Position numbers and translations under genes: made by a program
Shown: positions 30,763-50,289 of the stretch, piece after piece
How positions within the stretch are numbered: the stretch's first letter is position 1
Layout: each line of letters opens with the position of its first letter
From: an uncultured Clostridium sp.
Lineage (GTDB): Bacteria > Bacillota_A > Clostridia > TANB77 > CAG-508
NCBI GenBank assembly: GCA_930980675.1
Contig: CAKNIU010000002.1
Span: 10,788 to 74,787, forward strand
Reading direction: 5' to 3'
Length of the DNA: 64,000 bases
Notes under the pieces: model-generated
What the model was told of the DNA's origin: nothing
Seen by the model: the letters and a program-made list of their open reading frames with translations, nothing else
Database searches by the model: none

Positions 30763-30782
30763 TAATAAGGGAAGAAATTATT

Positions 30783-31988: not shown

Positions 31989-32038
31989 AATATTGAATAT
32001 AGTATTTGTTCTATGTATATATTTGGAGGTGCAATAAA

Positions 32039-32056: not shown

Positions 32057-32071
32057 AGGTGAAAGAAGAGA

Positions 32072-32605: not shown

Positions 32606-32628
32606 AAATGATATTTTAGGAGAAGAGC

Positions 32629-33744
32629 ATGAAGATAGCAATGATTGGTCACAAACGTATTCCTTCGAGAGAAGGAGGAGTAGAAATAGTTGTTGAAGAG
32701 TTATCTACAAGACTTGTGAAAGATGGATATCAAGTGGATGTATATAATAGAAAAGGAAAGAATGTCCAAGATAAAAGTGCTGACAAAGAAAACAGAAAAA
32801 TAAAAAATTATAAAGGTGTAAAAATAATAACAGTACCAACTATTAATAAAAAAGGAATTGATGCTCTATTATATAGTATCTTAGCTACACTCAGAGCATT
32901 GTTTGGGCATTATGATGTAATACATTACCATGCAGAAGGTTCTTGTGCAATGCTATGGCTACCTCATTTGTTTGGAATACGAACAGTTGCAACAATCCAT
33001 GGACTTGATTGGCAAAGGTCTAAATGGGGGGGAATAGCAGCAAAATATATAAAATTTGGAGAAAAAGTTGCAGCGAAATATGCAGATGAAATTATTGTAT
33101 TATCAAAAAATATTGAAAAATATTTTTTAAATACATATAATAGGAATACAGTTTTTATCCCTAATGGAGTTAATAAGCCAACATTAAGAAAAGCCAAAAT
33201 TATAAAAGAAAAATATGGTTTAGGTAAAGATGAATATATATTATTTTTGGCAAGAATAGTACCTGAAAAGGGATTGCACTATTTAATAGAAGCATATAAA
33301 CAAATTAATACAGACAAAAAGCTTGTAATTGCTGGTGGAGCTAGTCATACTAATGATTATTTAAATAAAATTAAAGAAATGGTTAAAGGTAATCCTAATA
33401 TTATTATGACAGGATTTGTACAAGGTTTAGAACTTGAAGAACTTTATAGCAATTGTTATTTGTATTGTTTACCAAGTGATATAGAAGGAATGCCACTTTC
33501 TCTTTTAGAAGCAATGAGTTATGGTTGTAGATGCTTGGTAAGTGATATAAATGAAAATACTCAACTAATTCATGATGATTTTATGAAATTTAAAAAATCA
33601 GATATAAATGATTTAAAGAGAGCATTGTCAAGGAATTTAATAGAAAATAAAAAGAAAAATTATCATTATGATGAAATATTAGATAAATACTATAATTGGA
33701 ATATAATTACAAATAAATATGAAAAAATATATACTCATAAGTGA
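32629..33744 (+). CDS. Family 4 glycosyltransferase with DUF1972-type N-terminus
   Basis: This 371-residue GT-B transferase has an N-terminus KIAMIGHKRIPSREGGVEIV...EELSTRL matching the DUF1972 module found in rhamnosyl- and related transferases. 'VIHYHAEGSCAMLWLP' and 'RTVATIHGLDWQRSKWG' are shared with that group. The C-terminal half has 'ILFLARIVPEKGLHYLIEAY' and the E-x7-E site in 'SDIEGMPLSLLEAMSYG'. It is a retaining transferase; a deoxyhexose donor is possible from the family resemblance, but no dTDP-rhamnose genes are in the window. AGGAGAAGAG lies before the ATG. Confidence 0.9.
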   Translation: MKIAMIGHKRIPSREGGVEIVVEELSTRLVKDGYQVDVYNRKGKNVQDKSADKENRKIKNYKGVKIITVPTINKKGIDALLYSILATLRALFGHYDVIHYHAEGSCAMLWLPHLFGIRTVATIHGLDWQRSKWGGIAAKYIKFGEKVAAKYADEIIVLSKNIEKYFLNTYNRNTVFIPNGVNKPTLRKAKIIKEKYGLGKDEYILFLARIVPEKGLHYLIEAYKQINTDKKLVIAGGASHTNDYLNKIKEMVKGNPNIIMTGFVQGLELEELYSNCYLYCLPSDIEGMPLSLLEAMSYGCRCLVSDINENTQLIHDDFMKFKKSDINDLKRALSRNLIENKKKNYHYDEILDKYYNWNIITNKYEKIYTHK

Positions 33745-33762
33745 AAGGAACATAAATAAAGT

Positions 33763-34950
33763 ATGAAAAGCTCAAAATATGCAAGGATTTATATAATTTT
33801 ATTATATTTATTAGTATTGCAAAATCCTTTACAAAATTACATAAAAATTTTTCAATATTTTGATGAAGTTTTAGCACTAATGTTCTTTCCAATAGCTATT
33901 ATATACTTAATAAGAAATAACGGAAAAATAAAAATTGAAAGAAAAGATATTATAATAGTAATCTGTTTAATAACTATTATTACAATTGGATTATTGGCTA
34001 ACATAATTTATGAATATCAAAGTTTAACTTATATACTAAGTGATCTGTTAGTTTTTTTAAAGTTTTTTTTAATGTATTTTAGTGTACAGATTATATTAAA
34101 AGGAAAGTTAAATGGATATAACAAACTAATCAGTTTACATGTAAAAATAATAACTTTTACTTTATTTGCTTTATCTATAATTAATTATATTTTTAATTTT
34201 TGGCCACCTCAATCATATCGATATGGTATAGGGGTAAACCAAATATGTTTTACACACCCTACAATGCTAGTTGCAGTGACTGTTGCTCTTATGTGCAATT
34301 TGGTGTATTTTAAATATGAAAAAGAAAGATTTTATATTTTTACACTAATTATGCAAATTTTATTGATAATTAGTACTTTGAGAATGAAAGCAATAGCATT
34401 TGTAGTTGTTAGTATTTTATTAATGATATATGTTTTGAAAGTTAACAAAAAAATAAAAGTATTAAATGTTTTATTAGTAGCAGGTATATGTATATTAATA
34501 AGTTATAATCAAATTATATATTATTTTACTGACGATAGTTTTGCTAGGACTGCATTATTGGAAACTTCCTTTAAAATTGCAAATGACAAGTTTCCACTAG
34601 GAACAGGATTTGCCACTTTTGGCTCATTTTTTTCAGGGGTTAATTACTCACCAGTTTATGAACTTTATGGAATAAATAATATATGGGGGCTTAGAGAAGA
34701 TAATCCAGCATTTATAAGTGATACTTTTTGGCCAATGATTATAGGTCAATTTGGATACATAGGTACAATTTTATATATGATATGTATAATGCTAATATTT
34801 TTGAAAATACAAAAAAAATATGACAAAAGAAATAAAAACACTTATGTAGCTAAAATTTTGTGTTTAGTATATTTAGGTATTTCAAGTACTTCAGAATCTG
34901 CTTTTGTAAATTCATTAGCAATTCTTTTGGCAGTATTATTAGCATTGTAA
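33763..34950 (+). CDS. wzy: Wzy-type polymerase / O-antigen-ligase-like membrane protein
   Basis: This 395-residue protein has about eleven membrane segments. The large extracytoplasmic loop near residues 255-320 contains 'RTALLETSFKIANDKFPLGTGFATFGS' and then 'DTFWPMIIGQFGYIG', the arrangement seen in Wzy and O-antigen-ligase-like proteins (arginine plus a 'P-x-GxGxG' stretch). No other similarity can be trusted, since this family diverges strongly. It is the second polymerase candidate in the locus, next to the intact flippase, whereas the EpsG-type one pairs with the broken flippase. The two sets may have come from different clusters. Confidence 0.8.
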   Translation: MKSSKYARIYIILLYLLVLQNPLQNYIKIFQYFDEVLALMFFPIAIIYLIRNNGKIKIERKDIIIVICLITIITIGLLANIIYEYQSLTYILSDLLVFLKFFLMYFSVQIILKGKLNGYNKLISLHVKIITFTLFALSIINYIFNFWPPQSYRYGIGVNQICFTHPTMLVAVTVALMCNLVYFKYEKERFYIFTLIMQILLIISTLRMKAIAFVVVSILLMIYVLKVNKKIKVLNVLLVAGICILISYNQIIYYFTDDSFARTALLETSFKIANDKFPLGTGFATFGSFFSGVNYSPVYELYGINNIWGLREDNPAFISDTFWPMIIGQFGYIGTILYMICIMLIFLKIQKKYDKRNKNTYVAKILCLVYLGISSTSESAFVNSLAILLAVLLAL

Positions 34951-34992
34951 AAACAAGTTTATTTAGATAAGATAGATAGAAAAGAGGAAAAA

Positions 34993-35976
34993 ATGGTATC
35001 GGTAATTATAACAACATATAAAAGAGCAGACTTTTTAGAAAGAGCAATAGAAAGTGTATTAAATCAAAGTTATAAAGATTTTGAATTGATAGTAGTAGAT
35101 GATAATGATAAAGAAACAGAATTTAGACATAAAGTAGAAGAATTAATGCAAAAATATGAAACTAATCCAAAAGTAATTTATATAAAACATGAAAAAAACA
35201 AAAATGGGGCTGCAGCTAGAAATACAGGAATAAAAGTAGCCAAAGGTGAATTTATTTCATTTTTGGATGATGATGACTATTATTTTAAGGATAGATTAAA
35301 GATTTTAGTATCCACTTTAGAAAAATATAATGAATATAATGCAGCATATACATCAGTAATAAAAATCAGAAATAATAGAATTTACGAATATATTAATGCA
35401 AAAGATGATGGAAATCTTGAATTCGAATTTTTGCAATTAAAGTCTTGCATTGGCACAGGAAGCAATATGTTCTTTAGAACTAAAGTATTAAAGCAATTAG
35501 GTGGATTTGATGAAAGCTTTATGAGACATCAAGATTTAGAAGTAATGGTAAGATTTTTTGAAAAAGGAAATATAATTAAAGCAATTGATAAAGTTCTAGT
35601 ATTAAAAGATGAAGCAAGCAGAATAAATGCTCCTAATATAGAAAAGCAAATACAAAATGGCGAAAAATATTTAAATAGATTTGAAAGTAATATAAAAAAT
35701 TATAAAGATAAAAGTAGTATAATATATGAGGAATGTTATTATCAAATGCTGAAATTTTGTGTAAGAAGTGGTGATAAGAAGAAAATAAAATTGATGAAAG
35801 AAAAATGTGAAAAATATCACAAGTTATCATTTAGAAAAAAAATCAAATTACTAATATTGAACGCAAACAGATATGTAAACATTGAAGGTCTAAAAGATAT
35901 AATAAATAATCATAATATTATTAAAAAATTAGATAATGACGTAATTAATGAGATGAAGCAAAATCATTTTATATAG
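34993..35976 (+). CDS. Family 2 glycosyltransferase
   Basis: This 327-residue GT-A transferase starts MVSVIITTYKRADFLERAIE, with IVVDDND, 'GAAARNTGIKVAKGEFISFL' and the metal-binding DDDDY (about residues 94-98). 'GTGSNMFFRTKVLKQLGGFDESFMRHQDLEVMVRFFEKG' holds the acceptor-side acidic residues. It is an inverting transferase acting at the inner membrane face. The basic C-terminal third has no recognisable domain. AGAGGA precedes ATG 34993, and it sits between the Wzy candidate and a galactofuranosyltransferase-like gene. Confidence 0.9.
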   Translation: MVSVIITTYKRADFLERAIESVLNQSYKDFELIVVDDNDKETEFRHKVEELMQKYETNPKVIYIKHEKNKNGAAARNTGIKVAKGEFISFLDDDDYYFKDRLKILVSTLEKYNEYNAAYTSVIKIRNNRIYEYINAKDDGNLEFEFLQLKSCIGTGSNMFFRTKVLKQLGGFDESFMRHQDLEVMVRFFEKGNIIKAIDKVLVLKDEASRINAPNIEKQIQNGEKYLNRFESNIKNYKDKSSIIYEECYYQMLKFCVRSGDKKKIKLMKEKCEKYHKLSFRKKIKLLILNANRYVNIEGLKDIINNHNIIKKLDNDVINEMKQNHFI

Positions 35977-36025
35977 AAGAAAGAAATAAATTAAAATCAA
36001 ACTAAGTTTTCGGATGGGGTGAATT

Positions 36026-36955
36026 ATGAAGGTAGATGTAGTAGTAGTAACATATAATAGAAAACAATTATTAGTAGAATGTATTAATGCAATACTAGAT
36101 CAAACATTTAATGTAAATAAATTGTTTATTATCGATAATGCTAGTACTGACGGAACAAAAGAAGAATTAGAAAATAAGAAAATATTAGATAGAAAAGTTG
36201 TTCAATATATTAAACTTGAAAAAAATATAGGTGGGGCAGGTGGCTTTCACGAAGGAATAAAAGCTGCAAGAGAAGATGGAGCAGATTGGATTTGGATTAT
36301 GGATGATGATACAATTCCAAATAGAGATTGTTTGGAACAATTAGTAGCAGCACTGGACAAAATAAAAGGAAAAGTAAGCTTCTTAGCAAGTGCTGTATAT
36401 GGATTGAAAAATGATTGCATGAATGTTCCCACAATAAGTGAATATAAAGGAGAAAATGGAATGCTTCAATGGCATCAATATGCAAAATATGGAATAATAG
36501 GTATTGATATTGCAACATTTGTCTCTTTACTTATAAACGGGCAAGCGACTAGAGAAGTTGGATTGCCAATTAAAGATTATTTTATATGGGGAGATGATAC
36601 AGAATATACTTTAAGATTAACAAGAAAATTTGGGAGAGCTTATTTAGTTGGAAAAAGTATAGTTATACATAAAAGAAGTGGCTCCAAATCCCTTTCTATA
36701 TATGAAGAGGAAAACATTAACAGAATAAAATTTTATTATTATATGGTAAGAAATAATTATATTAACGCAAAAGAGTATTACTCTAAGTTAAAGAAAATAC
36801 GATTTTATTTAAGTTGGAAAAAAACAACTATAAAATTATTATTTTCTAAGTCAAAAAATAAATTTCTAAAAATTAAAATGATAAATAAAGGATTAAGAGA
36901 TGCAATATTTAAGAAATATGATTATAAATCTTTTGAAAATAGAGAAAATTCTTAG
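36026..36955 (+). CDS. GT2 glycosyltransferase, galactofuranosyltransferase-like
   Basis: This 309-residue protein starts VDVVVVTYNRKQLLVECINA. The features 'IDNASTDGT', 'NIGGAGGFHEGIKAAREDGADWIWIMDDDTIP' and 'IKDYFIWGDDTEYTLRLTRKFG' are the layout of the GlfT-type GT2 group, where DDD binds the metal and WGDDTE supplies the catalytic base. Members transfer galactofuranose (or rhamnose in close relatives) from UDP-Galf. UDP-galactopyranose mutase, which makes UDP-Galf, is encoded 6 kb downstream in the same operon, so galactofuranose transfer is the favoured reading. It begins after a GGATGGGG stretch. Confidence 0.85.
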   Translation: MKVDVVVVTYNRKQLLVECINAILDQTFNVNKLFIIDNASTDGTKEELENKKILDRKVVQYIKLEKNIGGAGGFHEGIKAAREDGADWIWIMDDDTIPNRDCLEQLVAALDKIKGKVSFLASAVYGLKNDCMNVPTISEYKGENGMLQWHQYAKYGIIGIDIATFVSLLINGQATREVGLPIKDYFIWGDDTEYTLRLTRKFGRAYLVGKSIVIHKRSGSKSLSIYEEENINRIKFYYYMVRNNYINAKEYYSKLKKIRFYLSWKKTTIKLLFSKSKNKFLKIKMINKGLRDAIFKKYDYKSFENRENS

Positions 36956-36983
36956 TAATTCATAATAAATAAGGAGACATAAC

Positions 36984-38441
36984 ATGAAAAGTAGTGTAAA
37001 GAAAAATTATATATATAATTTAATTTATCAGATACTAGTAATACTGCTACCTTTAATTACTGCACCATATGTTTCAAGAGTTTTAGGAGCAGAAAATATA
37101 GGAATATATAGTTATACAACTTCAATAGCTTCATATTTTATATTATTAGGATCATTAGGAATTGCTTTATATGGACAAAGAGAAATAGCTTATTATCAAA
37201 ATGAAAATAAAAAGTTTACACAAAAATTCTGGGAAATTTTTATTTTAAAAGCTATAACATTATCTATCTCAACTATAATATTTTATTTCTCTTTTGTATA
37301 TAGAACTAATGAATATAATATTTATTATATGGTCCTTTTAATCGAGATAATTGGAAATATATTTGATATAAGTTGGTTTTTTCAGGGGTTGGAAGAGTTT
37401 AAAAAAACCGTTTTAAGAAATATTTTTATAAAGATTTTATGTCTCATATTAATTTTTACCTTTGTAAAAACTGAGCAAGATCTTATTAAATATTTTTTTA
37501 TAAATGTAATTTCTTTATTTTTAGGTAATTTATCACTTTGGTTGTATTTGCCAAAATATTTAGTAAGAGTAAGAACAAAAGACTTAAATATAATAAAACA
37601 TCTAAAACCCATATTGATATTGTTTATTCCTGAAATTGCAATACAAATATATACACTATTAGATAAAACAATGATAGGTGCAATATATGCTGACAAATCA
37701 GAAGTAGGTTTTTATGAACAGAGTCAAAAAATAATTAAATTATTATTAACTGTTGTAACATCACTAGGAACTGTTTTATTACCAAGGATTGCAAATTTTT
37801 TTGCAAACAATAAAAAAGAAGAAGTGTATACATATATAAGAAAATCTTTTAATTATGTTTACATATTGGCTTTTCCAATGATATTTGGTATTATAGCAGT
37901 TGCTAAAGAATTTGTACCGTTATTTTTTGGCCCAGGATATGATAAAGTAGTAATATTAATGGGAACTATTTCACCAATATTGTTATTTATTGGAATGAGT
38001 AATGTTATTGGAAGACAGTATTTATTGCCAACAAAAAGACAAAAAGAATATACTATATCTGTGGTAGTAGGAGCTGTAATAAATTTTATAGCAAATAGTT
38101 GTTTAATATGGAGATTAGGAGCATTAGGAGCATCAATAGGAACGATTATTGCTGAATTTACTGTAACATTAGTTCAGTTAATTTTTGTAAGAAATGAATT
38201 CAATATAAAAGAAATAATATTCTTGTCACGCAATTATTTGATTGCATCTATAATAATGTATGGAGTATGTAAACTAGTAGGAATAATACCAGTAGCTACA
38301 ATAGTTTCTCTAATACTTCAAGTAGTAATTGGAGCTATGGCATATATATTAATATTGTTAGTAATAAAAGATCAGTTTACTTATGATATACTAAATCAAA
38401 TAAAAGGCAAAGTGCTTGGAAAATTAAAGAACAAGGAGTAG
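36984..38441 (+). CDS. wzx: Wzx-type polysaccharide flippase (intact)
   Basis: This 485-residue protein has 12-14 membrane segments (MATE-like polysaccharide exporter family). Family segments include 'NYIYNLIYQILVILLPLITA', 'SRVLGAENIGIYSYTTSIA', 'LYGQREIAYYQ', 'LDKTMIGAIYADKSEVGFYEQSQKI' and 'FGIIAVAKEFVPLFFGPGYDKV'. It flips undecaprenyl-linked repeat units to the outer leaflet for polymerisation. It aligns along its length with the frameshifted homologue at 21500, so the two are paralogues or independently acquired. AAGGAG precedes the ATG, and the next gene begins three bases after the stop. Confidence 0.92.
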   Translation: MKSSVKKNYIYNLIYQILVILLPLITAPYVSRVLGAENIGIYSYTTSIASYFILLGSLGIALYGQREIAYYQNENKKFTQKFWEIFILKAITLSISTIIFYFSFVYRTNEYNIYYMVLLIEIIGNIFDISWFFQGLEEFKKTVLRNIFIKILCLILIFTFVKTEQDLIKYFFINVISLFLGNLSLWLYLPKYLVRVRTKDLNIIKHLKPILILFIPEIAIQIYTLLDKTMIGAIYADKSEVGFYEQSQKIIKLLLTVVTSLGTVLLPRIANFFANNKKEEVYTYIRKSFNYVYILAFPMIFGIIAVAKEFVPLFFGPGYDKVVILMGTISPILLFIGMSNVIGRQYLLPTKRQKEYTISVVVGAVINFIANSCLIWRLGALGASIGTIIAEFTVTLVQLIFVRNEFNIKEIIFLSRNYLIASIIMYGVCKLVGIIPVATIVSLILQVVIGAMAYILILLVIKDQFTYDILNQIKGKVLGKLKNKE

Positions 38442-38444
38442 TTT

Positions 38445-39428
38445 ATGAAACAACAAATAAAAAAAATAATGAAAAAAGTAGGTATGTATGATTTGATAGT
38501 GAAAGTAAAAAATAAGAGATATTTAAGAAAATGCACCAGTAAAAAAATAAAATTTGAGAATAGGATGAAAGATAGAGAAAAACTATGTATAATATTAGCA
38601 GGCTATAAACCATATTTGTATGATGTTATATTCGAAAGAATAAAAGAATGTATAGAGGAAGATATAGATGTATGCATATTATCGAGTGGAATTTATAGTC
38701 AAGAGTTATCAAATATAGCAAAATCAAATGATTGGTCATATTTAAGTCAAAAGGAAAATAGTGTAGCTAAAGTACAGAATACAGCAATAAACTTGTTTAA
38801 AAATGCAAAATATATATACAAACTTGATGAAGATGTTTTTGTTACAAAAAATTATTTTAGTACATTAATGAAAACTTTAAAGGAATGTGAAAAATGCGGA
38901 GAATATCAAGTAGGATTTGTAGGTCCACTTATTCCTATAAATGGGTTTGGAAATTTAGAAATATTAAAAAGATTTAACCTTGTAGAAACCTATACAAAAA
39001 AATTTGAGAAACCTCTTTATGCAGCTGGAAGAAATAGAATGGTGGAAAATAATCCAGAGGTCGCAAAGTTCTTTTGGGGATATGAGAATTATTTACCGAA
39101 TATAGATGAGATGAATGAAATGCTTCAAAATGATAGTTTTTCATATACATCTTGCCCAATAAGATTTAGTATTGGAGCGATTCTTTTTAAAAGACAACTA
39201 TGGGATGACATGAAGATGTTTGAGGTAAAAAGAGGAGTTGGTTTAGGAAGTGATGAAATACAAATTTGTAATTATTGTATGGAAAATTCTCAAGCAATAA
39301 TAGTATCTAAAAATACTGTTGTAGGGCATTTATCTTTCAAAAATCAAAATAGTACGATGAAACAATACTTTGAAGATAATAAACAAGTTTTTAAAATAAA
39401 AGATGTAATAGTTAAAGGGGACAAATAA
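38445..39428 (+). CDS. Predicted GT-A glycosyltransferase
   Basis: This 327-residue cytosolic protein has a basic N-terminal 45 residues. A GT-A-like core follows: 'LCIILAGYKPYLYDVIFERI', 'SVAKVQNTAINLFKNAKYIYKLDEDVFVT' (the LDEDV as metal-binding DxD-type motif, about residue 130), 'GFVGPLIPINGFG' and 'RGVGLGSDEIQICNYCME'. It looks like a distant GT2 relative found in capsule clusters; the donor and acceptor are unknown. It begins three bases after the flippase stop and ends one base before the acyltransferase gene, in a run of tightly packed genes. Confidence 0.7.
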   Translation: MKQQIKKIMKKVGMYDLIVKVKNKRYLRKCTSKKIKFENRMKDREKLCIILAGYKPYLYDVIFERIKECIEEDIDVCILSSGIYSQELSNIAKSNDWSYLSQKENSVAKVQNTAINLFKNAKYIYKLDEDVFVTKNYFSTLMKTLKECEKCGEYQVGFVGPLIPINGFGNLEILKRFNLVETYTKKFEKPLYAAGRNRMVENNPEVAKFFWGYENYLPNIDEMNEMLQNDSFSYTSCPIRFSIGAILFKRQLWDDMKMFEVKRGVGLGSDEIQICNYCMENSQAIIVSKNTVVGHLSFKNQNSTMKQYFEDNKQVFKIKDVIVKGDK

Positions 39429-39429
39429 A

Positions 39430-40533
39430 ATGGAAAAAACAAAAAAACGAGACATGAATTTTGAGTTACTTAGAATAATATCAATGATTCTAATTATTTC
39501 ATCGCATTATATTATTCATAGTGACATTTTAGATACAATTGATAAATTTTCAGTAAATTACTTTTTTATCGATTATATAAGGGCTTTATCTAGAATATCT
39601 GTTGGATTATATATATTAATAACTGGATATTATATGGTAAAATCTAAAATAAAAATCAAAAAATTGTTTAATACATGGGCAATTGTTGTTTTTTATTCTA
39701 TATTTATGTGTATAGTATCTTTATTATTAAAACAAGATGTTGGGATGAAGGGAATATTAAAATCTTTATTACCTGTTAGTAGTGGATTATATTGGTTTGC
39801 AACAGTATATATTGCATTATATACTTTAGCTCCATTCTTTAATATTTTAGTTAATAAAATAAGCAAAAAACAGTATATAATATTATTATTTATTCTATTT
39901 ATATATTTGGTAATAGATAAAACAGTATTTGCAAATAACAAATATATTGATGCAAGGAATGGAGAAAGTTTTATATGGGTTGCATTTTTATACTTGGTAG
40001 CTGGATATATAAGATTATATTTTGATAAACATATAAACAAAAAAATTGGTATAAGCATTACTTTGTTAGTTCCAGTTGTAATAGTTATATTAAGATTTTT
40101 ATCAATGAAATTAATTAATAAAAATCTAGAAAGATTATTTGATTTTTGCAATATATTTAATTTCATATCATTAATTAGTTTATTCTTATGCTTTAAAGAC
40201 ATAAAAGTAAAGAATGAAAAAGTAAATAATATAATTGGAAAAATAGCACCATTAACTTTTGGAATATATTTAATTCATGATAATGCATATTTTAAACCAT
40301 TTTTATGGGTAGATTTATTAAAAGTTAGTAATTTCGCAAATTCAAAATTTTTAATATTACATTTTATAATATCAGTTATTTTAGTATTTATAGTATGCTC
40401 ATTGATTGAGACAATAAGAGCAAAAATATGGAAATTATGTAGTAAATCTAAAATATCTAAAAAAGTGGATAAATTATTAGATGATTTGAATGATAAATTT
40501 TGGAATATAATGGAGGAAAAAAATGGAAATTAA
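39430..40533 (+). CDS. Acyltransferase 3 family membrane protein
   Basis: This 367-residue protein has about ten membrane helices. The N-terminus 'RDMNFELLRIISMILIISSHYI' is the acyltransferase-3 (OafA/WecH) start, with the catalytic His in SSHYI, and 'SVGLYILITGYYMVKSK' follows as in the family. 'GIYLIHDNAYF' near residue 280 is the usual late motif. These enzymes move acyl groups, usually acetyl, onto sugars of surface polymers. Its 3' end overlaps the next gene, a 3-hydroxyacyl-CoA dehydrogenase, by 11 bases, implying coordinated translation and perhaps an acyl donor other than acetyl-CoA. Confidence 0.88.
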   Translation: MEKTKKRDMNFELLRIISMILIISSHYIIHSDILDTIDKFSVNYFFIDYIRALSRISVGLYILITGYYMVKSKIKIKKLFNTWAIVVFYSIFMCIVSLLLKQDVGMKGILKSLLPVSSGLYWFATVYIALYTLAPFFNILVNKISKKQYIILLFILFIYLVIDKTVFANNKYIDARNGESFIWVAFLYLVAGYIRLYFDKHINKKIGISITLLVPVVIVILRFLSMKLINKNLERLFDFCNIFNFISLISLFLCFKDIKVKNEKVNNIIGKIAPLTFGIYLIHDNAYFKPFLWVDLLKVSNFANSKFLILHFIISVILVFIVCSLIETIRAKIWKLCSKSKISKKVDKLLDDLNDKFWNIMEEKNGN

Positions 40534-41797
40534 AACAGTAACTATAATTGGATCAAATGGAGCATTTGGAACAGGTGTAGGAGCAATATTTGCATCTTTT
40601 GGAAATGCAAAAGTATATATGATTGCAAGAACCAAAGAAAAAGCAGAATATGCAATAAAAAAGGCAGGTTTATCAGTTAGAGCAAATTCAATATGTAAAA
40701 ATATGATACCAAAAACATATGAAAAATTAGAAAATTGTGTAAAAGATTCTGACTTTATTATAGAAACTGTTGTGGAAGATTATAAGATTAAAAAAACTAT
40801 ACATGAAGAAATAAATAGATATATGAAAAATAATTCAATATCTTCTAGTATTACTTCTGGGATATCAATAAATAAGTTGTCAGAGAGTTATAATGATAAT
40901 AATAGAAGAAAGTTTTTTGGAGTACATTTCTTTAATCCTCCATATAACTTGCAACTATGTGAACTTATTACATCAAAGTATTCTGATTCTAAGACAGAAA
41001 GGGATTTAGAAGGATATCTGAAGAATGTATTACATAGAAAAGTAGTAAGAGTAAAAGATAAAGCAGGATTTTTAGCCAATAGAATAGGTTTTCAGTTTAT
41101 TAATAGAGCAATGCAATATGCTCAAGAATGCAGCGGACTTGGTGGAATTGATTATATAGATGAAATTTTGGGAGAGTTTACTGGTAGAAATATGCCACCG
41201 TTGTATACTGCAGATTTTGTTGGATTAGATGTTCATAAGGCAATTGTTGACAATATATTCGAAAATACAGACGATTGTTTCAATACTTCATTTAAAATGC
41301 CAGAGTATGCTAATGAACTAATAAAACAAGGTAATTTAGGAATGAAAGATAATAAAGGATTATATTCTAATAATGGGAAATTAGTATATGATATTGAAAA
41401 AAATGAATATAGAGAAAAAAGAGAATATACACTTAAATTTACAAATAGTATAATAGAACATTTGAAAATAGGGAATTATAAAGAAGCTATAAAAGTTCTT
41501 CTAGAAGAAGAATCAAAAGAAGCTGAAATATGTAGAAAAATGTTAATAAATTACATTATTTATTCATATATTACAACTAAAGAAGTGGGATATAATTTAT
41601 TAGACTGTGATTTGGCGATGGCAGAAGGATTTAATTGGGTACCACCATTTGCGTTGCTTAATCTAATAGGAAAGGAAGAATTTTTAGAAAAGGCAGTAGA
41701 ATATTTTCCAAATTGTAAAAAAGACATATGTGAACTGGTTCAAAAGGATATTAAATCAAAGTATGGTTATGAAAAATTTATGAAAGCAAAGAGGTAA
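40523..41797 (+). CDS. 3-hydroxyacyl-CoA dehydrogenase family protein
   Basis: This 424-residue protein has an N-terminal NAD-binding Rossmann domain, [20 protein letters not shown], where the GxGxxG motif is changed to GSNGAFGTG. It also has '[19 protein letters not shown]', [12 protein letters not shown] and '[17 protein letters not shown]'. '[19 protein letters not shown]' and '[15 protein letters not shown]' are the two FadB/Hbd C-terminal signatures, followed by an extra C-terminal module. It would interconvert 3-oxoacyl- and 3-hydroxyacyl-CoA with NAD(H). No other fatty-acid or butyrate genes are present, only a thiolase four bases downstream. GGAGG lies within the preceding acyltransferase gene. 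Confidence 0.85.
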
Positions 41798-41801
41798 GAG
41801 T

Positions 41802-43055
41802 ATGGAAAAGGTATATGTTATAGGCGGAGCGCAAACAGATTTCGAAAGAAATTGGACAAAGGAAGGAAAAAATGTAATTGCTCTATTAAAAGAAGTGATA
41901 AATAATGCATTAAAAGAAACAAATATATGTTTTGAGGACATAAAAAAATTAAATTCTGAAAATAAAGTGGCGATTTTTATAGGCAATTTTTGCGCAGAAT
42001 ATTATATTAAACAAGGACATTTAGGGCCTTTATTAACAGAAATCGATGAAGCATTTTATGGAGTTCCATCAGCTAGATATGAAGCTGCCTGTGCTTCTGG
42101 CTCAGTGGCGTTAGATGCAGCTATTACAAAAATAAAATCAGGAGACTATGACTTAGCTATTTGTGTGGGATTTGAACTTATGAAAACAGTAAATTCAAAA
42201 ATATGTGGGGATTATTTAGGATTTGCTTCATTATATGAAAAAGAAGCAAAAAGAATTGAATATCCATTTCCAAAATTATTCGGAAGACTTGCAGATGAAA
42301 TATATAAAAAATATAGTTTAGACTTGGATAAATTTAAATATAATTTAGCTCAAATTTCTTGTATTAATTATAGCAATGCGAAACGTAATCCAAATGCACA
42401 AACAAGAAAATGGTTTATGGATATAAGACAAGCCAATTATAGAGGTGAGGAAACTAATGATAATATTGGAAATATGCTAGCACTTTCGGATTGTTCACAA
42501 GTTACAGACGGTGCTGCTGTGGTTATGCTTTGCAATGAAAAGTTTATGAAAGAAAAAAATGTAAACGAAGCTCCAATAGTTAAGGGATATGGTCATAGAG
42601 TTGCTCCTTTTCTATTATCTAAGAAGTTTGAAGAAAGCCGAGATAATGAGTATATCTTACCATGGACAAGAAGAACAATCCTTGATGCGTATAAAAGAGC
42701 TAATTTAACAGTAGAGGATATAGATGTATTTGAGACACATGATTGCTTTACATCAAGCGAATATATGGCAATATCCGCATTTGGAATTACCAAGCCGGGA
42801 AAAGAGTATGAAGCAATTGAAAATGGAACAATAACTATGGATGGTGATAAACCAATAAATCCTAGTGGTGGATTAATTGGATGTGGACATCCTGTTGGTG
42901 CAACAGGAGTTAGAATGATGCTAGACTTATACAAACAAATAGAAAACAAAGCAGGAGATTATCAAATAAAAAATGCTAAGAATGCAATGATGTTAAATAT
43001 TGGAGGGTCTGCAACTACTAATTATGCGTTCATAATAGGAAAAGAAAATGTCTAA
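41802..43055 (+). CDS. Thiolase, SCP2/archaeal type
   Basis: This 417-residue thiolase-superfamily enzyme has its active-site Cys97 in YEAACASGS. '[20 protein letters not shown]' is the HDCFT form of the SCP2-thiolase and archaeal acetyl-CoA acetyltransferase branch. The catalytic His is in [10 protein letters not shown], and GGSATTNY closes the active site. It would condense acetyl-CoA to acetoacetyl-CoA or cleave a 3-oxoacyl-CoA. The archaeal-branch enzymes usually work with a small DUF35 partner, which is absent here. It lies four bases after the 3-hydroxyacyl-CoA dehydrogenase and 20 before glf, inside the capsule operon. With that dehydrogenase it could make 3-hydroxybutyryl-CoA or a longer hydroxyacyl-CoA as an acyl donor. 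Confidence 0.85.
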
Positions 43056-43075
43056 AAAAGATTGGAGGAAAAAAT

Positions 43076-44179
43076 ATGAAATATGATTATTTAATAGTTG
43101 GCTCAGGTCTATTTGGATCAATATTTGCTTATGAGGCAAATAAAAGAGAAAAAAAATGTTTAGTAGTAGAAAAGCGTTCACATTTAGGAGGTAATATTTA
43201 CACGGAAAATGTAGATGATATAAATGTTCATAAATATGGAGCGCATATATTTCACACAAGTAATAAAGAAGTATGGGAATATATAAATCAATTTGCAGAA
43301 TTTAATAGATATACTAATTCACCAGTTGCTAGATATAAAGATGAATTATACAATATGCCTTTTAATATGAATACTTTTAATAAATTATGGGGAGTTATAA
43401 CTCCAGATGAGGCAAAAGCTAAAATTGAAGAAGAAAAAGAAGAGGCAGGAATAACAGAGCCTAAAAATTTAGAAGAACAAGCAATTAGCTTAGTTGGAAA
43501 GACAATTTATGAAAAGCTTGTAAAAGGTTATACTGAAAAACAATGGGGACAAAGGGCAACAGAGCTACCATCTTTTATAATAAAGAGATTACCGGTAAGA
43601 TTTATTTACGATAACAATTATTTTAATGATGATTATCAAGGGATTCCAATAGGTGGATATACACAAATAATAGAAAAAATGTTAGATGGTATTGAAGTTA
43701 GACTAAATACAGATTATTTAGAGCATAAAGATGAATTAGAAAATATAGCAGATAAAATACTTTATACAGGTCAAATAGATAAATATTATGACTATTGTTT
43801 TGGAGAACTTGAATATAGAAGTTTAAAATTTGAAACAGAAGAGTTAAATAAAGATAACTATCAAGGAAATGCAGTAGTAAACTATACAGAGTATGAAGTT
43901 CCATATACTAGGATAATTGAACATAAACATTTTGAAAAAATTAAAAATCATGAAAAAACAATTATTACTAGAGAGTATCCAGATAAGTGGGATAAAACAA
44001 AAGAACCATATTACCCTATAAATAATGATAGGAATAACCAATTATATGCAAAATATAAAGAATTGGCAGATAAAGATAATAAAGTCATTTTTGGTGGAAG
44101 ATTGGGACAATATAAATATTATGATATGGACAAGGTTATAGGATCTGCTTTAGAACTTGTAAAAAAAGAATTAGAATAA
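43076..44179 (+). CDS. glf: UDP-galactopyranose mutase
   Basis: This 367-residue flavoenzyme has the FAD Rossmann motif DYLIVGSGLFGSIFAYE at the start, then 'KRSHLGGNIYTE', 'HKYGAHIFHTSNKEVWEYIN', 'YNMPFNMNTFNKLWGV', 'GYTEKQWG' and 'TREYPDKW', all hallmarks of Glf. It converts UDP-galactopyranose to UDP-galactofuranose with reduced FAD in the cytosol. It indicates that the polymer contains galactofuranose and supports a Galf-transferase role for the gene at 36026. GGAGG precedes ATG 43076. An 83-base A/T-rich gap follows before the next gene. Confidence 0.96.
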   Translation: MKYDYLIVGSGLFGSIFAYEANKREKKCLVVEKRSHLGGNIYTENVDDINVHKYGAHIFHTSNKEVWEYINQFAEFNRYTNSPVARYKDELYNMPFNMNTFNKLWGVITPDEAKAKIEEEKEEAGITEPKNLEEQAISLVGKTIYEKLVKGYTEKQWGQRATELPSFIIKRLPVRFIYDNNYFNDDYQGIPIGGYTQIIEKMLDGIEVRLNTDYLEHKDELENIADKILYTGQIDKYYDYCFGELEYRSLKFETEELNKDNYQGNAVVNYTEYEVPYTRIIEHKHFEKIKNHEKTIITREYPDKWDKTKEPYYPINNDRNNQLYAKYKELADKDNKVIFGGRLGQYKYYDMDKVIGSALELVKKELE

Positions 44180-44262
44180 AATTGTTATAAAAAAAATATA
44201 ATATTGTAACAAAAATGCAATAAACTAATGGTAAAATTATTCTAAATTAGGAGAATAATGCA

Positions 44263-46899
44263 ATGTTACCACGAAAAAGAAAAAAAATAGTAATAATTTT
44301 TGTTACAATATTTATTATTTTATTATTTATTGTAAAAGCATTAAATAAGAATACATATATATCAAAAGATACAAAGGAATTAGAATGGTTATATAACATT
44401 AGAGAACAGGAGTATACAGGAAAGACTTATTATGTTTCAAGTGATGGAACATCTGAAGATGGAACAGATATTAATTATCCAATGTCTTTTGAGAATGCTA
44501 AAAGTAAATATTATTTTGGTGGCGATAAAATATTGTTAAAGAGAGGTGACACTTTTTATGGGCAATTTGCTATTAGTGGCTCTGCTTCTACGGATAAACC
44601 AATATTAATTAGTGCATATGGGCAAGGTGAAAGACCTATAATTAGTGTAGCAAAAATTATTAGCAATAGAAGTGTATGGGAAAATGTAAACTCAAATGTT
44701 TATAGAGTTGATATAACGAATGTTGAAAACTTTTCAGGCTGTATGATGACTGATGCAGATTCATGTAATATTGGATTTTTTACTGATGGAAAATCTAATA
44801 TATATGGAGATAAAAAAGATGGTTTGGAGAAACTGTTAAAATTAGGTGACTTTTTCTCGAATGAGAAGTATTTTTATGTTTATTCAAATGGTAATCCTAC
44901 TGATTTTTTTGGTACAATAAAAATGGCAATAAATAAGCATATTTTTGGAATAGGAAATTATATGGAAATATGTGATTTGACATTAGAATATTCAAGCGGT
45001 CATGCTATGATGAAAGCTAGTTGGCCATTATATAATAGTTATATACATGATTGTTTGATTAATTATATAGGTGGTGCACAACAAGATGAGGTTACTAGAT
45101 ATGGTAACGGAATTGAATTATATGATGGAGCATATAATGTGATTATTGAAAATAATATTATAAAAAACGTATATGATGCGGGGATTACACTACAAGGAAA
45201 TAATCTTGATTGGGATAATATTTTGATTCAAGGTAATATAATAATAAACACTTGTTATCCTTTTGAATTGTGGGCAAAAAAGACATCTACAGGATTGAAA
45301 AATGTAAAAATTACTGATAATATAGTAATAAATCAAGGACGTGGATGGGCTCAACAAGTTAGAACAAGTCCTGGAGTAAGTGCTAACCATGTATTTTATA
45401 CTTATGGTGAAAATGCAAGAATGGATGTATATATTCAAAATAATAGATATTATAATTCATATAGGCTTTTCTATATTACTGAAGGAGATAAAGAGAGATT
45501 TAAAGTAGAAGTTAAAAATGACAATAATAAATATTATATAAAAGATGATGTATATGTGGTTAACAATGTAAAAAACGAAAATATAAAAGGATATTTGAAT
45601 AGTGAATATAATACAGAGCATAATTCTGTTTTTAATTATATCTCCGACCCAGAAATAGAAGAAATCTCAAACCCAGACATACTTAACTCAAACGACTATG
45701 ATGAAATAAAAACATACTATGATAAATTTGATGTAAAGTATAGAAATTCACATGCAACAGAGAATATAATACCTACAATAGGATCAATAATAAACGATGA
45801 AAAATATACTGGCATATTACAGAATAATGAAATTAGTTTAGCATATGAAGAGTTAAAAAAAGCTGTTAGCAATTTGAGTCAAAATATTGACATAATAAAT
45901 GTAGATAGTGTATCATATAGTTATGAGTGTTTATACAACTTTATTAATACAATTAAAGATAAATTCTTAAATAATGAAATAAACATGCAAAAAGATAATT
46001 TTATTGAATTAGTAAGCCAATTAGATTCTGTTTCAAATGAGTATAAAGATATATACTCTTACTATATAACAGAAGACAATACTAGCTTAGACACAATAAA
46101 GAATACGTTAAACAATATCATAGATAAGTACAACAACAATTTAGACTTAGACATAGGATACTTAGAAAATATAATTACTACTGCAAAAGACCTATACAAT
46201 AACAGTATTACAACAGACAATCTATCTTTGAATGTATTAAATAAGCAAAGAATTATTAACATAACTAATCTTGCAAATAGTATTATTGATTTGAAGATTA
46301 ATGAATTTGTTGAATTAGAAAAGCAAAAAATAAAAGTCGAATTTGACAAAGATACAACTACTCCTACTAATGAAAATATCACAGCCACACTAATTGTTGG
46401 CGATAATACTATCATTAAGAACAACGGTGGAAGTAATAAACATATTTTTGAAAAAAACGAAACTTTTACATATGAATTAGAAATAAAGGGAGTTATCTTT
46501 AATGTTCAAGTTACCATATCTAATATTAATAAAGATTATACAATAGAAGAAGAGTATATTACTAATATAGGCGGCAAAACACAAATATTAGATTTTAAAG
46601 ATAATCTTGGAATTTCGAATTTCACCTTTAAACGTGATGATGAATTAGTAAATATAAATGAAGATATTGTAAAAACAGGAGACATCATTACTTTTAACAA
46701 CAAATCATATACTTTAATAGTTTCAGGAGACATAAATAGTGATGGCGGTTGTACTATTAAAGATATAGTTAGCTATAGAAAATATTTATTAAAGTATTCT
46801 GAATATAGTAATATACAATTTAAAGCAGCAGATATAAATCAAGACAATGAATTAACAATCAAAGACTTAGTTGGCATAAGGGAACTATTATTAAACTAA
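44263..46899 (+). CDS. Membrane-anchored or secreted beta-helix protein with C-terminal type I dockerin
   Basis: This is an 878-residue protein. An N-terminal membrane helix or uncleaved signal (about 6-24) is followed by a right-handed parallel beta-helix (about 55-410). The helix shows the pectate-lyase-like opening 'YYVSSDGTSEDGTDINYPMS' and many stacked turns with Asn ladders (NGIELYDGAYNVIIENNIIK, NILIQGNIIINT). A helical Asp/Asn-rich region (about 500-690) and a small beta domain lead to a C-terminal pair of calcium loops: DINSDGGCTIKD (Asp823, Asn825, Asp827, Asp834) and DINQDNELTIKD (Asp857, Asn859, Asp861, Asp868), the two F-hand loops of a type I dockerin. Beta-helix proteins in capsule loci are commonly lyases, epimerases or hydrolases; catalytic residues are not certain. 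The next gene encodes a cohesin-like protein 13 bases away. Confidence 0.85.
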   Translation: MLPRKRKKIVIIFVTIFIILLFIVKALNKNTYISKDTKELEWLYNIREQEYTGKTYYVSSDGTSEDGTDINYPMSFENAKSKYYFGGDKILLKRGDTFYGQFAISGSASTDKPILISAYGQGERPIISVAKIISNRSVWENVNSNVYRVDITNVENFSGCMMTDADSCNIGFFTDGKSNIYGDKKDGLEKLLKLGDFFSNEKYFYVYSNGNPTDFFGTIKMAINKHIFGIGNYMEICDLTLEYSSGHAMMKASWPLYNSYIHDCLINYIGGAQQDEVTRYGNGIELYDGAYNVIIENNIIKNVYDAGITLQGNNLDWDNILIQGNIIINTCYPFELWAKKTSTGLKNVKITDNIVINQGRGWAQQVRTSPGVSANHVFYTYGENARMDVYIQNNRYYNSYRLFYITEGDKERFKVEVKNDNNKYYIKDDVYVVNNVKNENIKGYLNSEYNTEHNSVFNYISDPEIEEISNPDILNSNDYDEIKTYYDKFDVKYRNSHATENIIPTIGSIINDEKYTGILQNNEISLAYEELKKAVSNLSQNIDIINVDSVSYSYECLYNFINTIKDKFLNNEINMQKDNFIELVSQLDSVSNEYKDIYSYYITEDNTSLDTIKNTLNNIIDKYNNNLDLDIGYLENIITTAKDLYNNSITTDNLSLNVLNKQRIINITNLANSIIDLKINEFVELEKQKIKVEFDKDTTTPTNENITATLIVGDNTIIKNNGGSNKHIFEKNETFTYELEIKGVIFNVQVTISNINKDYTIEEEYITNIGGKTQILDFKDNLGISNFTFKRDDELVNINEDIVKTGDIITFNNKSYTLIVSGDINSDGGCTIKDIVSYRKYLLKYSEYSNIQFKAADINQDNELTIKDLVGIRELLLN

Positions 46900-46912
46900 A
46901 GGAGAAAAGCAA

Positions 46913-47773
46913 ATGAAAGAGTTAAAATTAAAATTAATCACAGTTTTATTAATTATGGTATTAATGTTAATTACATCAGTAGCAGTATTCGGAGCAACAG
47001 GTTCTTTAACAGTAAGATGGGTACCAGATGTATCAAATGCAATAGAGGGCAAAGAAGTAAAAGTTACACTTAGTATTACAGATTTCAGCAATGTTGATAC
47101 TAGCCTTCCACTAATAGGTAGTGCAACTTTACAATATGATACTTCTATATTTTCTTCTATAAAAGTAGAAGGTAAAAATAGTTGGGCAGCTACACAAGGA
47201 GGAGAAAATACACTTCTTCTTGAATCTCCAATGAGTGGAACTATAAATGAAGGCGAAATAGCTACTATTACTTTAACTATAAATTCAAATGTTACAACTT
47301 TTGATACCGAAATTAAACTTAATTCATTTGAACTAACAAATGATGATGGTATGGAAGAAGAAGAAGCTAACATTGATATAAGCAATATGAATTTAACAGC
47401 TACAGCTAGAGTAAATTCTGGAAGTGATAATGAGGCTGATAATCCTCAAAACCCAAGCGATGACAATAATAACCAAGGTTCAACAGAAACACCAGATGCA
47501 GAAGATCCATCAGATGACAATCAAAATAATGATCAAAACAACAACCAAGATGAAGAAAATCCAAATGATAATAATTCAGAGGCAGATGATGACCAAAGTG
47601 CAGGAGCAAATGAAATAGAAAAGGTTGAAGACCTTACAGTTGCTAAAGATTCTATACCACAAACTGGTACAAACTATATAGCAATTGCAATAATTGCATT
47701 AGTAGTTTTAATAGGAATTATAGCATTTATAAGATATAAAAAATATGTACAATTAATGAATAAAGGGGTTTAA
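46913..47773 (+). CDS. Cohesin-like protein with sortase (IPQTG) wall anchor
   Basis: This is a 286-residue protein. A signal peptide (about 1-27, ending VAVFGA) is followed by one beta-sandwich of about 135 residues (30-165) with a cohesin-like plan: 'GKEVKVTLSITDFSNVD', 'GSATLQYDTSIFSSIKVEG' and 'NEGEIATITLTINSN'. These match the cohesin strands 'GDTVTVPV', 'xxxLxYDPxVLE' and 'GxxAxIxFxV'. An acidic Asp/Asn/Gln-rich linker (about 165-240), then IPQTG (248-252), a membrane helix and a basic tail fix it to the wall. Cohesins bind dockerins, and the gene 13 bases upstream ends in one. GGAGAAAA serves as ribosome site. Cohesin assignment is by pattern; a generic carbohydrate-binding or pilin-like sandwich is the alternative. 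Confidence 0.75.
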   Translation: MKELKLKLITVLLIMVLMLITSVAVFGATGSLTVRWVPDVSNAIEGKEVKVTLSITDFSNVDTSLPLIGSATLQYDTSIFSSIKVEGKNSWAATQGGENTLLLESPMSGTINEGEIATITLTINSNVTTFDTEIKLNSFELTNDDGMEEEEANIDISNMNLTATARVNSGSDNEADNPQNPSDDNNNQGSTETPDAEDPSDDNQNNDQNNNQDEENPNDNNSEADDDQSAGANEIEKVEDLTVAKDSIPQTGTNYIAIAIIALVVLIGIIAFIRYKKYVQLMNKGV

Positions 47774-47780: not shown

Positions 47781-48473
47781 ATGGAAGAGGAAATCGATTT
47801 AAAAAATGTATTGAAATCATTTTGGGATAGAAAAATTGCTATTTTAATAATTCTACTTATATGTATTGTAATTGGATTTGTATATACAACATATTTTGTA
47901 AATCCTATGTATCAAGCTACTGCAACAGCAATACTTACAAGTAATACTGAATCAGGAGAGGGAGCTGTTACTCAAGGTGAAATAACTCTAAATAATTCAC
48001 TTCTTTCTACATACAGAGGTATTGCAACAAGTGATTCTGTTTTAAGCACAGTAATAAGTAATTTAGGTTTACAAACTACAGCAGGAGCTTTAAAAGGTCA
48101 AATCACTGTTACATCAGCTACAAATACTCAAATCATTCAAATTACAGTTGAAAATGCAGATCCTTCTTTATCTGCAAAAATAGCTAATGAAATAAGAGAA
48201 GTATTTACTCAAAGAGTTGCTGAACTTTATGATATGCAAAATATCAAGCCTTTAGATGATGCTAAAGTGCCAACTTCACCAAGCAATATTAATCATGTAA
48301 AAGATATATTAATATTTATTGCAGCAGGCATTGTACTTTCAGTAATATATGTGGTTTTAGCAAACTTATTGGATAATACAGTAAAAAGTAGCACTGATAT
48401 AGAAAAAGCGACAGGACTAAATGTTATAGCAGAAATACCAGTTTATGAATTTAGTAGAGGGAGGAAAAGATAA
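47781..48473 (+). CDS. Wzz/CpsC-type chain-length regulator and kinase activator
   Basis: This 230-residue membrane protein has two membrane helices (about 17-37 and 175-196) flanking an extracytoplasmic Wzz domain. It opens with 'EEEIDLKNVLKSFWDRKIAILII' and 'YQATATAILTSN', and closes with a proline-rich 'DDAKVPTSPSNINHVKD' before the second helix, as in CpsC/YveK proteins. Its C-terminal cytoplasmic tail 'STDIEKATGLNVIAEIPVY' activates the BY-kinase, encoded without a gap at 48474. Together they set polymer length and control export. It starts seven bases after the cohesin-like gene. Confidence 0.9.
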   Translation: MEEEIDLKNVLKSFWDRKIAILIILLICIVIGFVYTTYFVNPMYQATATAILTSNTESGEGAVTQGEITLNNSLLSTYRGIATSDSVLSTVISNLGLQTTAGALKGQITVTSATNTQIIQITVENADPSLSAKIANEIREVFTQRVAELYDMQNIKPLDDAKVPTSPSNINHVKDILIFIAAGIVLSVIYVVLANLLDNTVKSSTDIEKATGLNVIAEIPVYEFSRGRKR

Positions 48474-49472
48474 ATGAAAAAGGAAATTATAACACAGTCA
48501 GATCCAAAATCACCAATTTCAGAAGTCTTTAGAGCCCTAAGAACAAATTTGCAATTTATAAAAAAATCTGATAATTGTCAAACAATATTATTAACTAGTA
48601 CAGTTCAGTCAGAAGGGAAAAGTTGGATTTCTGCAAATTTAGCAACTACTTTTGCTCAGACTGGAAGTAGAACATTGATTATCGATGCCGATATGAGAAG
48701 ACCTAGACAATATAAGATCTTTCAAATTAATCCAACTCCTGGTTTGTCAAACTTTTTATCAGAAATAAATGAAACTGGAAGAAGACAAAAAATTGATGCA
48801 TTAGATTGCATTAAAAAAACAGAAGTAGAAAATTTATATTTACTACCTTCTGGAAATATACCACCAAACCCATCAGAGCTTTTAATGTCAGAAAAAACAC
48901 TTGAACTTATTGATGCAGTTACAAATAATTTTGATGTTGTTATTTTTGATGGAGCACCTTGCTTACTTGTTACAGATTCAACTATTATTTCTAGACTAGT
49001 AGATAATACAGTTCTTGTTACAAGCTATAAATATACAAAAATAGATGATTTGAAAGAGGCAAAAAAGCGTATAAAAAGAGTTGGTGGAAATATTGCCGGT
49101 GTAATTTTAAATAGAATAGAAATTTCTAAGAAAAAATATGAAAATAAATATTATTATGCTAGTAGCACTAATACTCCAACTTTAAGAAATGATAGAAAAA
49201 GAATGTCTACAAATACTAGCGAAAGAACAAAATCTAAAGATTTAGATAATGAGTTGGATTTAATAAGAAAAATAAGAATAGATTCAAAGGAAGAAAATAA
49301 TACGGAAAAAACTACAAGTAAAAAGATAGATGATTACATTAATGACAAATTAGAAGATACTCAAAAACAAATACAAAAAGAAATACAAAGTACAAAAAAG
49401 TTTAAATCAAAAGTAGAAGTACCATCAGATAAAGCAAAAGAAATATTAGATAGTATAAAAAAATATAAATAA
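48474..49472 (+). CDS. Bacterial tyrosine kinase (CpsD/CapB-like) with long C-terminal extension
   Basis: This 332-residue P-loop tyrosine kinase opens with SEVFRALRTNLQFI, the contact to the Wzz partner. Walker A is TSTVQSEGKSW, with Lys49. Walker A' is LIIDADMRRPR and Walker B is VVIFDGAPCLLVTD. A YYY triplet at about residues 225-227 marks the usual Tyr cluster, but about 105 further residues follow that are Lys/Glu-rich and probably coiled-coil, without a second cluster. Typical CpsD proteins end shortly after their tyrosines. It autophosphorylates and regulates polymerisation, and is reversed by the phosphatase at 49531. The start codon follows the Wzz stop directly. Confidence 0.9.
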   Translation: MKKEIITQSDPKSPISEVFRALRTNLQFIKKSDNCQTILLTSTVQSEGKSWISANLATTFAQTGSRTLIIDADMRRPRQYKIFQINPTPGLSNFLSEINETGRRQKIDALDCIKKTEVENLYLLPSGNIPPNPSELLMSEKTLELIDAVTNNFDVVIFDGAPCLLVTDSTIISRLVDNTVLVTSYKYTKIDDLKEAKKRIKRVGGNIAGVILNRIEISKKKYENKYYYASSTNTPTLRNDRKRMSTNTSERTKSKDLDNELDLIRKIRIDSKEENNTEKTTSKKIDDYINDKLEDTQKQIQKEIQSTKKFKSKVEVPSDKAKEILDSIKKYK

Positions 49473-49530: not shown

Positions 49531-50289
49531 ATGATAGATGTTCATACACATATATTACCTAGCATTGATGATGGTTCAAAAGATATAGAAGAAACATTTA
49601 AAATTATTAGTGAAGCTTGCTCAGCGGGTTTCACTGATGTTTTTGCTACATCACATTATATTGAAGGTGAATATGAGTTTAATAAGACAGATAGAGAATT
49701 TATAATAGAAGCGATAATGCAAAAAGTTGAGGAAGAGAACATTGATATCAAAATACATGTAGGAGCAGAAGGGTATATATCTAATGAATTGCCAAACTTA
49801 ATTAAAGAGGGTGTTGTACCCACTTTAGGGGATAGTAGATATGTACTTTTTGAATTACCATTAAGAGCTAAAGTTATGTATACGGAAGAGGTTATAAATA
49901 AACTTATTCAAATGAAACTTGTACCGGTTATAGCACATCCTGAAAGATACGAACTTATTCAAGATGAACCCAATATTGCTATAGACTGGATTGAGCAAGG
50001 TGCACTTCTTCAATGCAATTATGCAAGCATTATTGGAAGATATGGAATGAAGGCAAAGGAAACCTTATATAAGTTACTAGATGCAAATGCAGTTCATTTT
50101 TTAGGAACAGATAATCATAGAGCAGGAAGCATATATACTAGGATGGATGATATATTGAGTGAATATAAGAGAAAAATCGGAAAAGAAAAATTATATGAAT
50201 TGAGCGAAATCAATCCTAGAAGTATTATAAATGACGAAGAAATTGATGTAGATATGCCAAGAAAAATAAAAAAAGGAAGATTGTTTTAG
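49531..50289 (+). CDS. CpsB/YwqE-type PHP-family tyrosine phosphatase
   Basis: This 252-residue metal-dependent phosphatase starts MIDVHTHILPSIDDGSKD, the PHP metal-binding head. Later come 'TSHYIEGEYEF', 'VPVIAHPERYELIQ' and 'HFLGTDNHRAG', the remaining metal ligands. It removes phosphate from the BY-kinase and its targets, completing the Wzz-kinase-phosphatase control module of the capsule. GAAAGGA precedes the ATG. It lies 58 bases after the kinase and ends the polysaccharide locus; the following 88 bases are T-rich without a clear terminator. Confidence 0.92.
   Translation: MIDVHTHILPSIDDGSKDIEETFKIISEACSAGFTDVFATSHYIEGEYEFNKTDREFIIEAIMQKVEEENIDIKIHVGAEGYISNELPNLIKEGVVPTLGDSRYVLFELPLRAKVMYTEEVINKLIQMKLVPVIAHPERYELIQDEPNIAIDWIEQGALLQCNYASIIGRYGMKAKETLYKLLDANAVHFLGTDNHRAGSIYTRMDDILSEYKRKIGKEKLYELSEINPRSIINDEEIDVDMPRKIKKGRLF

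Follow-up and report, generated by a model that had tools for sequence, protein, structure and literature searches.

What is a cohesin and dockerin pair doing in a capsule cluster, directly upstream of the genes for control of polymer length? The question is raised by a stretch of 64,000 nucleotides from an uncultured Clostridium sp. (contig CAKNIU010000002.1, positions 10,788 to 74,787 of the forward strand; hereafter the window), in which a gene for a dockerin-bearing beta-helix protein of 878 amino acids (44263..46899, forward strand) is followed, as the next gene, by one for a wall-anchored cohesin protein of 286 amino acids (46913..47773, forward strand), and then by genes for a Wzz-type protein, a BY-kinase and a phosphatase. 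The reading that we favour, with modest confidence, is that the two proteins form a socket-and-plug pair for a capsule-processing enzyme, and that this enzyme acts on behalf of the capsule which the cell itself makes. Comparison of alleles further shows that the beta-helix is a cassette swapped at a fixed junction, with the stalk, the dockerin and the cohesin remaining constant.

Domain comparison, profile searches and structure models predict that the first gene encodes an exported protein with an N-terminal membrane helix (residues 4-47), a right-handed beta-helix (about 50-460), a helical stalk (about 480-687), a beta domain (about 691-820) and a C-terminal dockerin (821-878). This type I dockerin (46723..46896, forward strand) matches Pfam Dockerin_1 at 7e-7 (29.8 bits, above the cut-off of 22.9), the profile of its family matches solved dockerins (best 7e-7), and both calcium-binding loops are complete in the translation, DINSDGGCTIKD and DINQDNELTIKD. 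The product of the next gene consists of a signal peptide, one cohesin domain (30-170), an acidic linker, an IPQTG anchor and a membrane segment. Its domain models with a cohesin fold; Pfam Cohesin (PF00963) did not match the window protein at E<=1, and the G002 cohesin, 49% identical to it in the domain, reaches 25.8 bits against the PF00963 cut-off of 24.1. The sortase-type anchor is recognised by TIGR01167 (17.6 bits, cut-off 15.9), with PF00746 giving 16.7, under its cut-off of 20, and sortases are present in 9/9 relatives tested. As there is only one cohesin, and not the several of a cellulosomal scaffoldin, the system is not a cellulosome. A preliminary description of the window had proposed both the beta-helix with a two-loop dockerin and the neighbouring cohesin-like protein with its anchor, and in these points it was right; it had also described the enzyme as clamped to the wall, but it overlooked the N-terminal membrane helix, so that the protein may instead bridge membrane and wall.

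The pair recurs at the same place in relatives. Five loci, from uncultured Clostridia or Clostridium sp., were obtained by scanning GTDB contigs for relatives of the cohesin, and all five have a dockerin gene upstream of the cohesin gene and Wzz, BY-kinase and CpsB genes downstream; the dockerin gene is directly adjacent (12 bases) in four, and in L002 four genes separate the two. A wider survey used Wzz as bait (TIGR01006 matches in 22/31 genomes of the genus and 57/145 of the family; all 26 listed places in the genus, and 47 regions for 80 listed places in the family, mostly the better-scoring ones) and covered the six open reading frames upstream of wzz, leaving out 16 loci with fewer than four upstream frames and retaining G001 (three frames), both genes being found there. 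Automatic calls gave 13 loci with cohesin and dockerin, one with a cohesin only (G013), none with a dockerin only and 35 with neither (Fisher p 5e-11, or 2e-10 without the short G001 locus, for loci which are not independent in kinship). G150 and G158 were not called automatically; G150, missed because a reverse-strand frame masked its wzz frame, was added by eye, its dockerin scoring 17.8 bits, below the cut-off of 22.9. A dockerin is then found upstream in 14 of the 15 relatives with a cohesin beside wzz, as neighbour of the cohesin gene in 12 of the 14, and at 0/35 loci without a cohesin, which ties the pair to this site. The lone cohesin of G013 is the single case of one gene kept without the other, an outcome that the preliminary description had named as a refutation. 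The detection profiles were seeded from the same families, and divergent cohesins may thus be missed. In other family members (L162, L166, L156, L149 and L152) the slot before wzz is occupied, by eye, by a sortase-like gene and one for a small surface-type protein in place of the cohesin pair. Other dockerin genes stand beside cohesin or cohesin-like genes at L107:3142-12843, L108:3946-12620 and L111:5455-9978, with SH3 proteins, BspA-type leucine-rich repeat proteins and a transglutaminase-like protein (dockerin by eye) as partners; Pfam found no cohesin match in the L107 partners. Pairwise docking seems to be a general surface strategy in these bacteria.

The exchange of the beta-helix, which the preliminary description did not notice, emerges from the comparison of alleles, for which homologues were grouped at 90% identity and, out of 401 beta-helix matches, the best 120 were examined. 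The C-terminal half of the window protein (455-878) is 94-98% identical to that of P0077, P0078, P0079 and P0087, alleles which appear to belong to the window's species, and the beta-helices are 34-37% identical (P0087 has 722 amino acids, and its beta-helix was compared over 274 positions). Among 320 pairs with a C-terminal identity of at least 85%, the beta-helices are at most 60% identical in 132 and at least 85% identical in 105, and more than one beta-helix allele class is present in 10/16 C-terminal groups. The identity step lies between residues 440-459 and 460-479 in 11/13 profiled pairs, the exceptions being P0090/P0111, with a step one interval later, and P0104/P0114, already at 83% at 440. 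The window gene itself has a change point in its third codon bases at codon 459 (45637..45645, forward strand; log-likelihood ratio 21.8, the highest value from 500 shuffles, each scanned at every fifth codon, being 11.6), with third-position C rising from 4% before to 15% after. At the DNA level, L003, L004 and L005 have the other beta-helix class, and in each of them the blastn alignment with the window picks up again at 45643, apart from short conserved stretches at the gene start in L003 and L004. The window's own class is present in L001 and L002, whose DNA aligns throughout the beta-helix. Protein comparison, DNA homology and codon composition thus agree on a junction near codon 460, and the identity contrast between alleles delimits a cassette of about residues 49-460 (44407..45642, forward strand). 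L005 also matches the window at 83% over 43073-44285, which takes in the mutase gene and the first part of the dockerin gene; an exchange can therefore be confined to the beta-helix.

Metagenome misassembly was considered as a source of these chimeric alleles and rejected, because independent groups have their junction at nearly the same residue, because some alleles have 7 to 50 member sequences (P0077 7, P0078 14, P0164 50), and because the codon composition of the window gene itself shifts there. The cohesin stays with the stalk and dockerin: its domain is 100% identical to that of the window in cohesin proteins whose longest contigs equal in size those of three different alleles (66228, 69461 and 49061), and a second group likewise has cohesins 96-99% and beta-helices 46-58% identical, co-location being read from longest contigs of equal size and confirmed directly for the 10612-base contig (L001) only. 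In P0033 the cohesin domain is 32% and the linker and anchor are 91% identical to those of the window, which marks a swap of the cohesin domain, as though both halves of the pair had been transferred at once; a protein search with the G157 enzyme did not find the dockerin partner of P0033 (4791 contig).

Such diversity could also arise in a general variable surface protein (an antigen, an adhesin or an enzyme against foreign glycans), if the capsule area is a recombination hot spot and alleles diverge under immune or phage pressure or by hitch-hiking. The junction does lie at the edge of the capsule cluster, related beta-helices occur on other surface proteins of G160 and G150, and the dockerin/cohesin-like pairs elsewhere in the same bacteria (leucine-rich repeat, SH3 and transglutaminase-like) make the tether look generic. 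We nevertheless think this explanation unlikely, given how strictly dockerins beside wzz keep to loci with a cohesin, and given that more than one occupant of the slot matches a hydrolase of a polysaccharide operon.

This match comes from the proteins which take the place of the beta-helix. In the 14 relatives that have both genes, the position before cohesin and wzz is taken by a beta-helix in six (G001-G005 and G150), a TIM barrel in four (G157, G033, G022 and G075), a barrel resembling glycoside hydrolase family 10 (GH10) in one and leucine-rich repeats in three; other lineages thus fill this slot with unrelated folds, two of them hydrolase-like. A profile (A3) of G157, G033, G022 and six homologues matches the catalytic domain of PslG at 1.1e-16 and 5jvk at 5e-19, with weaker matches to beta-xylosidases and other barrels, and G022 alone matches PslG at 3e-9. 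E274 and E375, in NEP and TE motifs, are invariant in 9/9 TIM-barrel sequences, and we take them to be the catalytic glutamates, as we take GH39 to be the label of PslG-like proteins. No Pfam hydrolase family reached its cut-off in the TIM-barrel relatives; in G075, where the gene is split in two frames, Glyco_hydro_cc gives 19 bits against a cut-off of 21, and the barrel was assigned by eye. The GH10-like barrel of G151 matches a beta-xylanase at 5e-5 over 202-315, with no Pfam GH10 match. On G157 (7e-79), G151 (3e-58) and G075 (1e-85) the stalk and dockerin can still be recognised as those of the beta-helix family. The PslG-like barrel is the strongest functional hint for the slot, and the PslG-like and GH10-like proteins favour a polymer-cutting role; the polysaccharide-acting protein of the preliminary description thereby gains partial support. 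An acyltransferase-like gene, named by eye, stands between cohesin and wzz in G075 (L103:4857-10381).

For the beta-helix itself the best Foldseek matches are XylC (3.6e-10) and lacto-N-biosidase (1.2e-9), with low TM-scores; XylC and BT_1002 presumably belong in a GH120/GH136/GH141 context. The sequence match to 6kqs is confined to an N-terminal stretch, and NCBIfam has no fitting family for the docked proteins (the window protein and four relatives, one as its first piece only). Three acidic residues are kept across 51 beta-helices less than 70% alike: E285 in 50/51, D305 in 51/51 and E335 in 51/51. The docked protein might instead bind the capsule polymer without cutting it, as a lectin matched to the capsule type or a staple retaining the polymer at the wall. 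Acidic residues so constant in divergent proteins argue against a mere binder, as do the PslG-like barrel with both presumed catalytic glutamates and the GH10-like barrel in the same slot, and we regard this alternative as improbable.

Several observations weigh against the view that a docked enzyme works for the capsule of the cell itself. The fold matches of the beta-helix are divided between hydrolases and lyases (Foldseek; VIA), and leucine-rich repeats occupy the slot in G113, G024 and G053 (from Pfam in the first two, G053 being nearly identical to G024 over the compared parts). Related beta-helices are also found away from capsule genes, in G160 on an LPQTG-anchored protein of 1193 amino acids without a dockerin (L104:790-4371), and in G150 behind a DUF285 region in a protein of 909 amino acids (L106:8648-11377). 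G013 has a cohesin-like gene beside wzz and no dockerin in the six open reading frames upstream, the docked gene of G075 consists of two overlapping frames (L103:4857-10381), and the beta-helix frame of G001 has two stops near its start, so that this copy as it stands is without a membrane helix. A weak signal-peptidase-like motif (VKA) in the window protein, also seen in G003 and G150, means that the protein might be released from the membrane; motifs of this type occur at 3/6 named loci and in 8/108 database relatives. Finally, the divergence of the beta-helix could be hitch-hiking with capsule exchange.

The surroundings of the pair are those of capsule synthesis, and all genes named here lie on the forward strand. 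Downstream are the Wzz-type chain-length determinant (47781..48473; PF02706 8e-16, and TIGR01006 4e-49, which is below the TIGR01006 cut-off), the BY-kinase (48474..49472; TIGR01007 9e-59) and the CpsB/CapC-type phosphatase (49531..50289; PF19567 9e-54), a module which the preliminary description had named correctly. The upstream cluster (23602..44179) encodes two LytR-CpsA-Psr proteins, a priming sugar transferase, a UDP-sugar dehydrogenase, an MBOAT protein, an AlgX-like protein, glycosyltransferases, acyltransferases, a flippase-like protein (36984-38441, named by eye) and a UDP-galactopyranose mutase (43076-44179). Also within it are 3-hydroxyacyl-CoA dehydrogenase-like and thiolase-like genes (40523-43055), perhaps for an unusual acyl decoration. 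The location at the wall and beside Wzz would also suit a transglycosylase or ligase that attaches capsule chains either to the docked protein or to the wall, and retaining hydrolases can transglycosylate. The cluster, however, already contains its two LytR-CpsA-Psr proteins, members of a family of wall ligases, and we consider such a joining activity very improbable.

A promoter-like element of extended -10 form, TTGTAA-N19-TGGTAAAAT (TTGTAA-N19-TGNTAWWAT; 44204..44237, forward strand), lies 25 bases before the dockerin gene. This is its only exact match in the 64-kb window, where shuffles lead one to expect 0.07. L001, L003, L004 and L005 have it in the corresponding position ahead of their dockerin genes, and G002 has it with one mismatch; it is absent before the G150 beta-helix gene, and was not found with fewer than two mismatches at six other capsule-site genes tested. 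A TTACAA stands ahead of it in L003, L004 and L005, giving an inverted repeat. The element was noticed solely by aligning relatives, and as its pattern was drawn from these loci after the fact it is a lead, a candidate promoter, and not a test. A general scan for promoters found 55, no more than the 57.7 expected from shuffles, and Rfam at gathering scores found nothing but a tRNA in 20000-55000. A promoter at this position would be consistent with a single transcript.

Among known systems the closest parallel is PslG, the hydrolase of the Psl cluster of Pseudomonas aeruginosa, whose activity and association with the inner membrane contribute to the making of Psl (PMC6813494, PMC9075953). As there, a hydrolase gene would lie inside a polysaccharide cluster, and the TIM-barrel version of the slot matches the PslG catalytic domain, whereas the window's own protein has another fold, the beta-helix. 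PslG belongs to a Gram-negative system and, to our knowledge, involves no cohesin or dockerin; by analogy, the pair may work like PslG-type operon hydrolases with a cohesin-dockerin tether added. A dockerin on the enzyme and a cohesin on a wall-anchored protein recall the cellulosome and the mucinolysome, in which Limousia cSca5 combines a cohesin with an LPxTG anchor (PMC12997984), but here each anchored protein has a single cohesin, with one partner encoded close by, and the setting is a capsule biosynthesis cluster instead of food-glycan digestion. Of the Clostridium perfringens cohesin modules (2vo8, 2jh2 and 2w1n), 2vo8 and 2w1n are by title part of a glycoside hydrolase, whereas the cohesin here is a separate anchored protein, and RbmB of Vibrio cholerae is, unlike the docked protein of the window, a secreted and undocked lyase. 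CcsZ of the clostridial cellulose synthase operon is likewise a Gram-positive hydrolase whose gene stands with those that make its polymer (PMC7710045), but it is a GH5 enzyme of a synthase-dependent system, and the abstract mentions no exchange or docking. Titles and opening lines of abstracts on cohesin or dockerin with capsule, Wzz or sortase, a literature in which subscription journals are mostly outside coverage, describe no such system, nor do those on capsule loci with a hydrolase and LPXTG.

In the reading we favour, sortase would link the cohesin protein to the wall and the dockerin would click into the cohesin with calcium, which would hold the beta-helix in the space from membrane to wall, close to Wzz and the site of export. 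In that place it would cut or trim the cell's own capsule polymer, much as PslG acts on Psl, possibly for release, for chain length or for clearing stalled chains, and cassette exchange would keep the enzyme matched to the capsule being made. More tentatively, and a little short of what we would call probable, the wall-anchored cohesin beside Wzz may be a standard socket into which each capsule type plugs its own enzyme, be it a beta-helix allele or a PslG-like or GH10-like barrel, swapped by recombination upstream of the constant stalk and dockerin, so that capsule and enzyme would change in one crossover. If this is true, cohesin-dockerin docking gains a role in making a polymer and not in digesting one, and it is explained how a polymer-specific processing enzyme keeps pace with capsule switching. 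The question why a polysaccharide cluster should encode a hydrolase of what it makes, posed as open in PMC9075953, would then extend to clostridial Wzz/BY-kinase clusters, for which the swapped enzymes would be a natural test set.

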